DNA from: an uncultured Altererythrobacter sp.
GTDB taxonomy: Bacteria; Pseudomonadota; Alphaproteobacteria; Sphingomonadales; Sphingomonadaceae
Assembly: GCA_913056125.1 (NCBI GenBank)
Contig: CAJXNC010000005.1
Span: 1 to 64,000, forward strand
Reading direction: 5' to 3'
DNA length: 64,000 bases
Every line of letters begins with the position of its first letter. Position 1 is the stretch's first letter. The notes under the pieces were generated by a model. The model had not been told where the DNA came from. It was given only the letters and a program-made list of their open reading frames with translations, and made no database searches. Below, piece after piece: positions 396-46,060 of the stretch. Both the position numbers and the translations under genes were made by a program.

Positions 396-5042
<4,647 letters not shown>

Positions 5043-34109: not shown

Positions 34110-36137
34110 TCAAGCCTTCAGGTCGGGCGCGGTCACCGCGTCCTTGAGCAGCGCAATCGCCTCGTCGAGCGAGATGAACTTCTGTTCCTTCTCGCCCAGC
34201 GTGCGCATGGCAACAGTGCCTTCCTCGGCCTCGCGCTTGCCGACAACCAGCAAATGCGGAACCTTGGCCAGCGAGTGCTCGCGCACCTTGTAATTGATCT
34301 TCTCGTTCCGGAGGTCGCTTTCGACACGGATGCCGGCCGCTTCCAGCTTCGCCACAGCTTCCTTCGCAAAGCCGTCCGCATCAGACGTGATCGTCGCCAC
34401 CACAGCCTGAACCGGCGCCAGCCAGACGGGCAGGCGGCCCGCAAAGTGCTCGATCAAGATGCCGATGAAGCGTTCATAGGAACCGAAGATCGCGCGGTGG
34501 AGCATGACGGGGCGATGTCGCCCGCCATCCTCGCCGATATAGGTCGCATCGAGCCGCTCGGGCAGGACGCGGTCACCCTGGATCGTGCCCACCTGCCAGG
34601 TCCGACCGATGGCATCGGTCAAATGCCATTCGAGCTTGGGCGCATAGAAGGCGCCTTCGCCCGGGAGTTCCTCCCAGCCATATTGCTCATTCGCCATGCC
34701 CGCCTCGGCCACGGCGTCGCGCATTTCCTGCTCGGCCTTGTCCCAATCCTCGTCCGACCCGAAACGCTTCTCCGGGCGCAACGCCAGCTTGATGGCATAG
34801 GTGAAGCCAAAATCCTTGTAGACGCTGTCGGCCAGCTCGATGAAGGCGCGCACCTCCTCGACCACCTGGCTTTCGGTGCAGAAGATATGCGCATCGTCCT
34901 GCGTAAACTGGCGTACGCGCATCAGCCCGTGCAGCGCACCATGCGGCTCGTTGCGGTGGCAGCAGCCCATCTCGCCCAGCCGGATTGGCAGTTCGCGATA
35001 GGACGTGATGCCCTGCTTGAAGACCAGCACATGCGCCGGGCAGTTCATCGGCTTGATCGCCATCCAGTGCGCATCGGATGCCACTTTCGGATTGGCGCCT
35101 GTTTCGCCTGCAAAATCGCCCAGTTCCTCGACCTCGGGAACGATGTCGGGCACGGCGAACATGTTCTCGGCATATTTGCCCCAGTGCCCGGACTGGGTCC
35201 ACTGCCGCACGTCCATCAATTGCGGCGTCTTGATCTCCTGGTAGCCCGCGCCGTCCATCTTGCGGCGCATATAGGCTTCGAGCTCGCGCCAGATCTTGTA
35301 GCCATTGGGGTGCCAGAAGACGGAGCCATGCGCCTCTTCCTGAAGGTGGAACAGATCCATTTCGCGGCCGAGCTTGCGATGGTCGCGCTTGGCCGCCTCT
35401 TCCAGCCGCATGAGATGGGCATTGAGCTGCTTCTTGTTGAGCCAGCCCGTGCCGTAGATGCGCGTGAGCTGCGCATTCTTCTGGTCGCCGCGCCAATAGG
35501 CACCGGCCACGCGCATCAGCTTGAAGGCATCGGGATCGAGCTTCCCCGTGCTGGCAAGGTGCGGACCGCGGCACATGTCCATCCAGTCCTCACCGGACCA
35601 GTAGACCGAAAGCTCCTCGTCATCGGGAAGCTCTGCCGCCCATTCGGCCTTGAAGCTTTCGCCTTGGGCCTTCCACGTCTCGATCAGCCGGTCGCGCGTC
35701 CACACCTCTCGGCGGAGCGGCTTGTCGGCCTTGATGATCTCGCGCATCTTCTCCTCGATGGCGGGGAGGTCATCCATGCCGAAAGGCTCGCGCGAGACGG
35801 GCGCCATGACGTCATAGTAGAAGCCGTCATCGGTCGAAGGGCCGAAAGTGATCTGCGTGCCGGGCCACAGTGCCTGCACCGCTTCGGCAAGCACATGCGC
35901 GTAATCGTGGCGGGCGAGTTCGAGCGCTTCCTCCTCGTCGCGGCTGGTGATCAGCGCCAGTTCGGCATCGCCGGTGAAGGGGCGGCCCAAGTCACGCAGC
36001 TCGCCATCGACACGCGCGGCCAGCGCCGCCTTGGCAAGGCCGGGACCGATTGCAGCCGCTACATCCGCCGGGGTCGAGCCCTGCGGCATCTCGCGCACCG
36101 AACCATCGGGAAGGCTGATCTTCAACAACTCGCTCAT
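34110..36137 (-). CDS. thrS: Threonine--tRNA ligase
   Basis: Charges tRNA-Thr. 675 residues from ATG 36137, with TGS domain ([19 protein letters not shown]), editing/SAD domain ([17 protein letters not shown]), class II core (MNCPAHVL with the zinc Cys; [20 protein letters not shown] motif 3) and an anticodon-binding C-terminus. An ATG ten codons earlier (36167) is possible but GTGAGAG before 36137 is a better ribosome site. A threonine-rich leader ORF and alternative hairpins lie directly upstream, implying attenuation control by charged tRNA-Thr. Confidence 0.97.
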
Positions 36138-36191
36138 CAAACTCTCACTTCGCGTTTGCGGCGCCATGGCAGAATTGCCCGCGCGCCGAAA

Positions 36192-36302
36192 GATGCGGCG
36201 TCCAGTTTGTCTCAGGCTTCGGGTGGTTGACGCCGCACCGCCCGAAGCCGGGCGGCGGCGGTCTGCTTAGCGCGCGACCGACCGCCCCCGGAGGACCGGG
36301 GT
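36192..36302 (-). promoter_or_regulatory. Attenuator-like region between the Thr leader and thrS
   Basis: On the reverse strand four mutually exclusive pairings can be drawn. Hairpin A: CCCCGG/CCGGGG (36286-36301), inside the leader ORF. Pairing B: GGCGGTC (36280-36286) with GACCGCC (36257-36263). Hairpin C: GCCGC-type arm with the CGGGCGGT arm around GCTT (36233-36261). Hairpin D: GTGCGGCGTC (36229-36238) with GACGCCGCAT, followed by CTTTC (ending about 36192). B would prevent C, as in classical amino-acid attenuators. There is no long U-run, so termination may be weak, Rho-assisted or replaced by translational control. Confidence 0.65.
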
Positions 36303-36338
36303 GGTAGTAGTGGTCGTGGTGGTGCGCGCATGCGTCAT
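36267..36338 (-). CDS. Threonine-rich leader peptide upstream of thrS
   Basis: A 23-residue ORF whose codons 6-13 are eight consecutive threonine codons (ACC, ACC, ACG, ACC, ACT, ACT, ACC, ACC); Thr is also residue 2. It ends with PVLRGRSVAR and a TAA, 129 bases before the thrS ATG. The composition is what a thr leader needs: ribosomes stall on the run when charged tRNA-Thr is scarce. There is no ribosome site; a good -10 box lies so close that transcription would begin at or next to the ATG. Confidence 0.75.
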   Translation of the reverse strand: MTHARTTTTTTTTPVLRGRSVAR

Positions 36339-36346
36339 GCCGGGCG

Positions 36347-36352
36347 ATATAA
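36347..36352 (-). promoter_or_regulatory. Candidate -10 box of the thr leader-thrS transcript
   Basis: Reverse-strand TTATAT lies eight bases before the leader ATG, so the expected transcription start coincides with that ATG (a leaderless message). A -35 match about 17-18 bases further upstream is weak (AGTGAC/TAGTGA). The 68-bp gap to the divergent hydrolase gene must hold both promoters. Confidence 0.45.
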
Positions 36353-36406
36353 GGTAGGAGTGCTGCAAAGTCACTAACCCCCTTGGCGAGAGGCAGGTGA
36401 GCCGCC

Positions 36407-37156
36407 ATGTTCGCCAGCATGGGAGCAACCGCAACGCAGTTTGCCGAGATCGCCGGAAGGCGCATCGCTTTTCGCCACAACCCGGGCAGCGGCCCGGCCC
36501 TGGTCTTCCTGCCCGGCTATCTGTCGGACATGGAGGGCGGAAAGGCGACCGCCCTGTTCGACTGGTCCATGGCTGCCGGACGGGAATGTTTGCTGCTCGA
36601 CTACTCTGGCTGCGGACAGAGCCTTGGCGCGTTTTCAGAAGGAACCTTGTCGCGCTGGCGCGAAGAGGTCTGCGGCCTCGTCGACCAGGTGGTCGACAAT
36701 GAGTCCGTCGTGCTGGTCGGTTCTTCAATGGGTGGGTGGCTGATGCTGCTGGCGGCGTTGGAACTTGGCCCGAAGGTTTCCGGCCTGGTCGGTGTAGCCG
36801 CTGCACCAGACTTCACCGAATGGGGCTACACGCAGGCCCAGAAAGCCGTGCTCGCCAGTGGCGAGACGATCTACGAGGAAAGCGATTACGGCTACGATCC
36901 CATGCCGACACATCCGGGATTTTGGTCGGACGGACAGGCACAATTGCTGCTGGGGGACTCGATCCCGCTCGATTGCCCTGTTCGCCTGCTGCACGGGCAG
37001 GAGGATGCGGACGTTCCGCCCGAAACCTCGCTCCGGCTTGCCCGTTCCCTGCGTTCAGAAGATGTGCAGGTGACGCTGGTCAAGGGAGGCGACCACCGCC
37101 TCTCGCGCGAGGACGATATCGCCCTGCTTCTGCGCACCGCTGCCTCGATGCACTGA
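36407..37156 (+). CDS. Alpha/beta-hydrolase
   Basis: A 249-residue serine hydrolase. Nucleophile elbow GSSMGGW (Ser near 106), oxyanion-region LPGYLSDMEG, and late HGQEDADVPPETS and GGDHRLS segments carrying the acid and His. The sequence resembles palmitoyl-protein/acyl hydrolases of the BioH-like group. Substrate unknown. Divergent from the thr leader. Confidence 0.9.
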   Translation: MFASMGATATQFAEIAGRRIAFRHNPGSGPALVFLPGYLSDMEGGKATALFDWSMAAGRECLLLDYSGCGQSLGAFSEGTLSRWREEVCGLVDQVVDNESVVLVGSSMGGWLMLLAALELGPKVSGLVGVAAAPDFTEWGYTQAQKAVLASGETIYEESDYGYDPMPTHPGFWSDGQAQLLLGDSIPLDCPVRLLHGQEDADVPPETSLRLARSLRSEDVQVTLVKGGDHRLSREDDIALLLRTAASMH

Positions 37157-45003: not shown

Positions 45004-46060
45004 GCCTTTCAAGGGCCCATAGAGCACTTTCAGCCACCGTTGCATCTCCGTCGGAACACAGGCTCTCGACCTGCGGCATGAGAGCGCGGTTGCCGCTATT
45101 TCCTGCTGCAATCAGACAGTTACGAACAAACCTGTCGCGTCCCACGCGCTTGATCGGAGATCCGGAGAACTTGGCTCGAAAAGCGGCATCGTCCAGCTCC
45201 AGCAGCTCAGCAAGGTCGGGCGCGACAAGTTCCTCGCGCGGGGCCAGTGCCTTGTGCCGCGCCGCAACCTGCGCGAACTTGTTCCACGGACAGGCCGCGA
45301 GACAATCGTCGCAACCATAGATGCGATTGCCGATTGCTTCACGAAATTCGAGCGGAATCATGCCCTTATGCTCGATAGTCAAATAGGATATGCAACGCCT
45401 AGCATCTAACCGATACGGTTCAGGAAAGGCGTTAGTCGGACAGGCATCCTGACAATCCCGGCACGAGCCGCAGCGATCCTCATGCGCCTCGTCCGGCACA
45501 AAGGGAACGGTCGTGTAGATCGCGCCGAGGAACAGCCAGCTGCCATGCTCCCTGCTGACCAGATTGGTGTGCTTGCCCTGCCAGCCGATACCCGCCGCCT
45601 GTCCGAGCGGCTTCTCCATCACCGGGGCCGTGTCGACAAAGACCTTGAGCGCCACTTCGAGCCCGCGCTTCTCCCCCTCCGCCACCAGCCAGCGAGCGAG
45701 CGCCTTGAGCGCCTTCTTCACCACGTCGTGATAGTCCCGTCCCTGCGCATAAACCGAGATGCGCGCCTTCTCCGGATCGCCCTCCAGCGCCATCGGATCG
45801 ACATCGGGCGCATAGGACATGCCCAGCGCGATCACGCTTTGCGCTTCGGGCCACATGCTTTGCGGCCCCTGCCGTACTTCCGCGCGATCCTGCATCCAGC
45901 CCATGTCGCCATGAAACCCGGCGTCCAACCATTCATGAAGGCGTTGCGCACGCAAGGAATCGTCCTGCGCGGGCGCAAAGCCAACGGCTGCAAAGCCCAG
46001 TTCCTGCGCCTTTGCGCGCAGCTCTTGCTGAAGCGAAGCGATTAGCTGCGTGTTAATCAT
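44987..46060 (-). CDS. queG: Epoxyqueuosine reductase
   Basis: Last step of queuosine modification of tRNA, reducing epoxyqueuosine with cobalamin and two 4Fe-4S clusters. 357 residues. Cluster motifs [16 protein letters not shown] and [15 protein letters not shown] are intact. The C-terminal HEAT-like tail is [19 protein letters not shown]. Overlaps the flavoprotein gene end-to-end and diverges from the ABC exporter. Confidence 0.95.

Follow-up and report, generated by a model that had tools for sequence, protein, structure and literature searches.

Attenuation in proteobacteria has been the subject of comparative papers. The leader of the his operon in enteric bacteria works through a cascade of alternate pairings, in which covering segment A frees B for C and, in turn, D for E. 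The element described here upstream of thrS has the same A-to-E cascade, and the his leader is its closest counterpart in helix logic. It differs in that the 5' arm of its terminator-like hairpin lies within the D:E loop, in the absence of a U-run, in its predicted leaderless start and in the tRNA concerned, which is tRNA-Thr. At thrS itself, the operator of E. coli and the T-box of Firmicutes place the gene under the control of ThrRS or of the tRNA-Thr level, and no leader peptide is involved. When the window (the whole stretch of 64,000 nucleotides analysed here) was scanned with Rfam at gathering scores, no T-box or thr leader was found, only a tRNA; a scan of positions 35900-36600 gave just two sub-threshold matches, nrdJ and M23.

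Leader peptides have been reported for several aminoacyl-tRNA synthetase genes. The accessible portions of the respective papers place them before trpS and leuS in Streptomyces (PMC1262725), before trpS in Caulobacter (PMC4117421) and, as histidine leader peptides, before hisS paralogues in bacilli (PMC2965389). As far as these portions go, such systems share with the present locus a leader ORF before a synthetase gene and, in the Streptomyces cases, competing hairpins, but they concern different amino acids and genes, and the Streptomyces leuS and trp-operon cases have poly-U terminators. The first-pass annotation of this DNA took control by charged tRNA-Thr to be a mode not known to be described for thrS. 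This is not supported, because a thrL leader peptide before thrS had already been reported in S. lividans TK24, where the accessible text gives it 18 residues with two Thr codons and describes one hairpin (PMC8079986). Compared by description only, both loci have a leader peptide with Thr codons before thrS and a leaderless start, and no U-rich terminator was found there either; the S. lividans leader is shorter in Thr codons and belongs to an actinobacterium, and that part of the report describes neither a switch architecture nor covariation. No other report of a thrS leader peptide was found in the open-licence literature searched, and the term thrS is absent from PMC4833913. The closest system in start geometry is the alphaproteobacterial trpL attenuator of S. 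meliloti, whose RNA begins right with the leader ATG; it differs in serving the Trp biosynthesis gene trpE(G) and in having a transcription terminator, as described in the accessible part of the source (PMC7298713).

The evidence gathered here, all of it computational, indicates that thrS in the window is very probably subject to ribosome-mediated attenuation by charged tRNA-Thr, through a his-like cascade on a transcript with a leaderless start. If true, attenuators sensing tRNA-Thr would form a conserved family serving an aminoacyl-tRNA synthetase gene in Alphaproteobacteria, and their helix cascade could be tested one pair at a time in many species.

A threonine-rich leader ORF upstream of thrS

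The features of the locus are collected in Table 1. The leader ORF reads ATG ACG CAT GCG CGC, eight Thr codons, CCG GTC CTC CGG GGG CGG TCG GTC GCG CGC TAA. Its 23 codons, the eight Thr codons and the gap of 129 bases to the thrS ATG at 36137 had been correctly annotated, but the extent assigned to the element (36192-36352) was too narrow, as it runs from about 36377 to thrS. Leader attenuators have a short ORF that repeats codons for the amino acid to which the regulated gene is devoted, and such an ORF is present here. The Thr run is the sole run of at least five Thr codons in the six frames of the whole window, and no such run arose in 100 replicates of a dinucleotide Markov simulation of the window. 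The downstream gene is the best among four PF00587 matches in the source genome. An alternative in-frame ATG is located at 36167; in the relatives compared by eye, the matching ATG is out of frame.

Table 1. Positions of the leader, its pairing segments and the flanking elements within the window
Feature	Position	Strand	Remark
-35-like element TTAGTGAC, distal (leader) promoter	36370..36377	minus	from coordinates and column frequencies, 149 distinct leaders
-10-like element TATATC	36346..36351	minus	ends 7 nt before leader ATG
Leader ORF MTHARTTTTTTTTPVLRGRSVAR, 23 codons	36338-36267	minus	sequence read
Eight consecutive Thr codons (sensor)	36300..36323	minus	
A arm CCCCGG	36296..36301	minus	begins inside last Thr codon
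B arm CCGGGGGCGG	36282..36291	minus	partner A (OFF) or C (ON)
P2 5' side with leader stop codon	36267..36279	minus	P2 encloses stop codon
C arm CCGCCGCCGCCCGG	36248..36261	minus	partner B (ON) or D (OFF, hairpin P3)
D arm GGCTTCGGGCGG	36238..36249	minus	partner C (OFF) or E (ON)
P4 5' arm GTGCGGCGTC	36229..36238	minus	inside D:E loop when D:E forms
E arm CCACCCGAAGCC	36215..36226	minus	partner of D in antiterminator-like hairpin
P4 3' arm GACGCCGCAT	36193..36202	minus	P4 is the terminator-like, putative OFF hairpin
CUUUCGG tail of P4	36186..36192	minus	conserved CUUY, no long U-run; also -35-like half of candidate internal promoter
P5 palindrome with conserved UGCCAUGG / UGUGCCAUGG	36160..36187	minus	weakly coupled arms, register kept; may act as internal promoter, hairpin or both
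thrS, threonyl-tRNA synthetase	34110..36137	minus	start taken as ATG at 36137

A six-frame scan for runs of at least seven identical residues gave, apart from the Thr codons and the antisense Val run opposite them, just seven Ser codons at 45189 on the plus strand. A divergent alpha/beta hydrolase gene (36407-37156, plus strand) shares a short intergenic region with the promoter of the thrS leader, and by eye this neighbour appears also in several leader-less relatives.

Promoter geometry and predicted leaderless start

The promoter 5' of the leader ORF was absent from the structure list of the first-pass annotation. In the window, the -10-like element ends 7 nt before the ATG, so transcription should begin at or next to the leader ATG. 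A total of 162 leaders were collected, 149 of them distinct: 136 before thrS and 13 before a small exonuclease-like gene, here called gene X. The leader is 23 codons long in 97 of the 149. Column frequencies over the same set display a TTGAC-like box (T in 69% at -35, G in 52% at -34) and a TAT-like box at -13 to -11, and the base preceding the ATG is C in 79%. No Shine-Dalgarno core (AGGA, GGAG or GAGG) precedes the leader ORF in 143 of the 149. The best -10-like hexamer ends 6-7 nt before the ATG in 123 of them, a figure biased toward the leaderless reading because the -10 was sought solely 5-9 nt upstream and, where several ATGs were available, the start codon was picked partly by it. This is how a leaderless transcript with its putative start at the A of the ATG would look.

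Two mutually exclusive sets of helices

The four pairings initially proposed downstream of the Thr codons can all be drawn. CCCCGG/CCGGGG (P1, A:B), the GCTT-loop hairpin (P3, C:D) and GTGCGGCGTC/GACGCCGCAT (P4) are conserved helices, and GGCGGTC/GACCGCC, judged by eye and from the fold of the window, is the local form of the stop-codon hairpin P2. What had been overlooked are D:E (36249-36238 with 36226-36215) and B:C. When 200 nt of the element were folded alone, the z-score was -1.85 and 10 of 200 shuffles were equally stable; a single-sequence fold only mildly better than shuffles means that the case rests on comparison.

Covariation was evaluated in an alignment of 37 sequences made with MAFFT and not fitted to structure. 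Together, P1, P3 and P4 pair in 90.7% of the cells, and 10 pairs and 42 cells show change on both sides, values that none of 500 shuffles reached on either measure; slid versions of the same helices pair in only 38-55% of the cells. Within P4, two pairs each show a C-G to U-A exchange in 8 sequences. For D:E, 83.5% of the cells pair and 17 are changed on both sides, again with 0 of 500 shuffles as high, although sliding it by -1 still leaves 74% pairing and an almost equal covariation (0.256 versus 0.266). The number of further pair types was not unusual in either test (61 of 500 shuffles for P1, P3 and P4, 66 of 500 for D:E). B:C pairs in 92.7% of the cells but shows next to no variation, and 53 of 500 shuffles scored as high in its column test, which makes that test weak.

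A second test compared, in the 136 distinct thrS leaders, the pairing of each 5' arm with its native 3' arm and with the 3' arms of other species. A:B, B:C, P2, P3 (C:D), D:E and P4 were all better in the native combination, with p-values from 7.6e-6 to 5.8e-18 that are inflated by the relatedness of the sequences, while none of 10 control pairings in the same leaders was coupled (lowest p 0.21). Weaker coupling was observed for P4b, which joins the 3' arm of P4 to the next bases, and for P5 (p 9.4e-4 and 2.9e-4, respectively). Pairing-dependent change therefore affects both helix sets in these leaders, A:B, C:D and P4 (OFF) on one side and B:C and D:E (ON) on the other. C has a choice between B and D, and D between C and E, while the D:E loop contains the 5' arm of P4; the two sets therefore exclude each other. 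Mutually exclusive helices downstream of the codon run are thus present by covariation and by arm swapping.

Ribosome position and the proposed mechanism

In the proposed mechanism, transcription would start at or beside the ATG of the 23-codon Thr-rich ORF, which is predicted to be translated leaderless. With plentiful Thr-tRNA, the ribosome would reach the stop codon and cover B, allowing C to pair with D in P3 and P4 to form, and thrS expression would go down (OFF). When charged tRNA-Thr is short, owing to little ThrRS or threonine, the ribosome would halt late in the Thr run and cover A; B would then pair with C, D would be free for E, and the 5' arm of P4 would be trapped in the D:E loop. 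With P4 blocked, transcription would continue into thrS (ON). The OFF state may correspond to premature transcription termination, either weakly intrinsic or Rho-assisted, and basal thrS expression may come from a second, weaker promoter situated just past P4. The conserved ORF, the promoter geometry, the coupled change in both helix sets and the shift of the predicted fold with ribosome position were computed; that stalling occurs, that P4 is the OFF state and that OFF means premature transcription termination is what we infer.

The effect of the ribosome was modelled by holding unpaired every base up to a distance of 12 nt from the A site, in an equilibrium folding that ignores the order of transcription. 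Across the 136 leaders, moving the A site from the last Thr codon to the stop codon raised mean P4 pairing from 0.17 to 0.61 and lowered mean D:E pairing from 0.35 to 0.03. P4 shifted by more than 0.2 in the expected direction in 95 of the 136 leaders and in the opposite one in 3; at the last Thr codon, P4 still exceeded D:E in 43%. Masks of 9, 12 and 15 nt shifted P4 and D:E in the same direction, the effect was absent in sequences shuffled after A, and chimeras of unrelated halves retained part of it (P4 difference of 0.28 versus 0.45 in native leaders). In the window's own sequence, P4 reached 0.98 with the ribosome on the stop codon, against 0.37 for P4 and 0.57 for D:E when it stood on the last Thr codon. 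A stall at the first or a middle Thr codon left P4 at 0.97-0.98, and without a ribosome the ON fold prevailed (D:E 0.76, P4 0.16), two results that fit poorly with a simple switch that answers any stall and is OFF in the absence of translation. Overall, control of thrS by charged tRNA-Thr via a leader peptide, as initially suggested, is well supported by a conserved Thr run, by competing helices that change together and by a predicted fold that shifts with ribosome position as expected.

Output of the proposed switch and alternative readings

The step that follows P4 may be termination, translational control or the action of Rho. P4 is followed by CUUY, and the long U-run whose absence had been pointed out is indeed missing: in the 136 thrS leaders the putative OFF hairpin does not have the U-run of an intrinsic terminator, and the 8 nt around CUU hold 2-3 U in 112 of them. 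For this reason we class the element as a variant that works like a classical transcription attenuator rather than as one of that type. The same tail favours a reading in which the ribosome-sensing switch is retained, P4 does not terminate by itself, and the output is Rho-dependent termination or an effect on translation or mRNA stability, a possibility that we consider serious, if somewhat doubtful. It is also favoured by the leaders before gene X, whose product gives a weak, below-cut-off Pfam match to the Rv2179c-like 3'-5' exoribonuclease family. Gene X follows a Thr leader in L008 (949-1446, plus strand), L018, L030, L194, L196, L197, L199, L202, L203, L206-L208 and L214, and precedes thrS where this was read (L008, L018, L030). 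The CUU tail is lacking in the gene X leaders, and 9 of the 13 distinct ones fold a P4-like stem that ends within 2 nt of a Shine-Dalgarno core, so translation would be what the same switch controls there; however, 2 of the 13 have another minimum-energy fold and 2 are devoid of a Shine-Dalgarno core. At thrS, on the other hand, P4 lies well upstream of the start, and sequestration of the thrS Shine-Dalgarno region was rejected because none of 10 leader segments showed arm-swap coupling with it (lowest p 0.11). The UU just after P4 is, moreover, almost invariant (T in 135 and 134 of 136), which also speaks against the reading that P4 does not terminate by itself.

Attenuation of a transcript from the distal promoter also has to be weighed against a proximal origin of thrS mRNA, in which the distal leader would be a minor transcript, a promoter-like TTY-N17-YANRG module would mainly drive thrS, and the attenuator would serve for fine control. 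In the window, CATGGC (36168-36163, counted by hand) lies 17 nt from the TTTCGG hexamer, forming a candidate internal promoter. The thrS leaders hold register for about 34 nt from CUU onward, and of the 136, 119 match the motif, 117 of them with a spacing of 17 between CTT and CATGG/TAAGG. TTY-17-YANRG is present at 32 of the 38 leader loci (0.45 expected from shuffles), the module is retained in the leader-less L032-L034, and TTG-17-YANRG precedes thrS in 16 of 72 no-leader loci against 0.3 expected. Nevertheless, leader loci have TTC or TTT, not TTG, in the -35-like half, and CATGGC makes a poor -10. The strict TTG pattern does not occur in 56 of the 72 no-leader loci or in 4 of 5 gene X loci, and the same stretch folds as P5, which may explain its fixed length. 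A predominant proximal promoter is conceivable but leans toward the improbable. Under attenuation from the distal promoter, the module downstream of P4 may be the second, weaker promoter that supplies basal thrS, and is a candidate for it. A further reading is that ThrRS itself would bind the leader RNA as an E. coli-type operator mimicking tRNA-Thr; in the column frequencies of the 136 leaders the P5 loop often holds UGU, which we take to be an anticodon of tRNA-Thr. The G of this triplet is missing in 28% of them, P5 has no overlap with the thrS start, and the Thr-codon run and the A-E cascade would go unexplained, all of which makes such an operator very unlikely. Just as improbable is an action of the leader peptide in trans like that of S. 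meliloti peTrpL, even if a leaderless leader peptide can act in this way according to the accessible part of that study (PMC7298713): residues outside the Thr run vary widely, and the RGR that recurs among them comes from the B arm, so that its recurrence is explicable by RNA pairing. Finally, a chance repeat or coding artefact would suit the mildly unusual fold of the single sequence, but it is refuted, to near certainty, by the conservation of length, promoter and coupled helices across 149 distinct homologues, the chance expectation being near zero.

The ribosome-mediated attenuator preferred here might be part of something broader, a portable Thr-tRNA sensing RNA module of Sphingomonadales with one leaderless sensor, one A-to-E cascade and two outputs: at thrS, a transcription stop at a CUUY lacking a U-run that doubles as the -35 of the second promoter; elsewhere, masking of the ribosome-binding site of an inserted exonuclease-like gene. 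This is a tentative proposal, and rather unlikely to hold in full. If true, the system would be a clean case for an attenuator working without a U-run and for one sensor joined to different outputs.

As regards terminators in general, a hairpin follows the stop codon in 32 of 46 selected ORFs of the window and just 3 have at least 4 T in the tail, too few to judge terminator style. In another genome (G417, locus L262, around 801-910, minus strand), a Thr/Ile-rich leader with a GC hairpin and seven T precedes an amino-acid-kinase (PF00696) ORF; the gene is read as aspartokinase-like and the leader as a canonical-looking threonine-pathway attenuator in the same family. Its seven T indicate that bacteria of this family can use U-runs.

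Distribution among relatives

A genus search covered 40 genomes including the source. The Thr-run ORF stands directly before thrS in 15 of the 39 examined and one gene further up in five more (L008, L018 and L030 with the sequence read, L006 and L026 by pattern only); no leader was found in the remaining 19. Among 80 named loci, nearly all from Sphingomonadales, the leader lies directly before thrS in 24, plus a shortened remnant in L055, and the bearers include Parerythrobacter, Croceicoccus, Erythrobacter, Porphyrobacter, Novosphingobium, Blastomonas, Sphingopyxis, Sphingorhabdus and a few Sphingomonas. Erythrobacter ramosus and Parerythrobacter lacustris are bearers that can be cultured. 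A covariance model derived from 37 of 38 leaders (L012 was omitted as a copy of L045, itself outside the set) matched 159 of 397 genomes of the GTDB family at E<=0.01, in 49 of 96 genera, some weak matches being due to chance, and 140 of the 397 (Sphingomonadales) at E<=1e-10. The start of thrS or gene X lies within 330 nt downstream in all 118 places fetched out of these 140. Across a draw of 289 genomes from the class, matches better than 1e-10 occurred only in the same family, in 3 genomes, and no Thr-run ORF was seen before thrS in 26 regions, taken from one genome each of 25 other alphaproteobacterial families and one of the same family. Some candidates were discarded: weak matches at the end of a cytochrome oxidase gene (L252, L253, L256 and L257) correspond to a His-rich C-terminus in another frame, and the best matches outside the family (L155/L260 and L156/L261, E 2.3e-4 and 9.2e-4) yielded no thrS start with a Thr ORF when scanned.

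In a family sample of 110 genomes not chosen by the model, taken from 124 with a thrS match and mostly the top ones by similarity, the leader is present in at least about 42, leaders more than about 700-800 nt upstream being missed. This number follows from 41 flagged genomes, of which L347 looks spurious, and two missed ones, L317 at a contig edge and L330 with its leader beyond the fetched stretch. On the tree, the distribution is clustered but patchy, with 19 changes versus 31.5 in shuffles; the 19 are an overcount, as L045, L006, L026 and L055 were labelled as lacking the leader yet carry it or a remnant. Repeated loss most simply explains this pattern. The element comes and goes on the tree and is therefore dispensable. 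The first-pass annotation had held that relatives lacking both the Thr run and covariation of the stems would speak against the element; the comparison favours it, the Thr run being kept and the stems covarying, though many relatives are without the element. Its patchy presence among close relatives would offer natural comparison pairs.

Shortened forms are also found. The L055 remnant keeps the Thr ORF, and by eye P3, D, P4 and E are absent from it. In L263 (around 801-882, minus strand), a thrS leader with a shortened structure seems to use a different, simple hairpin.
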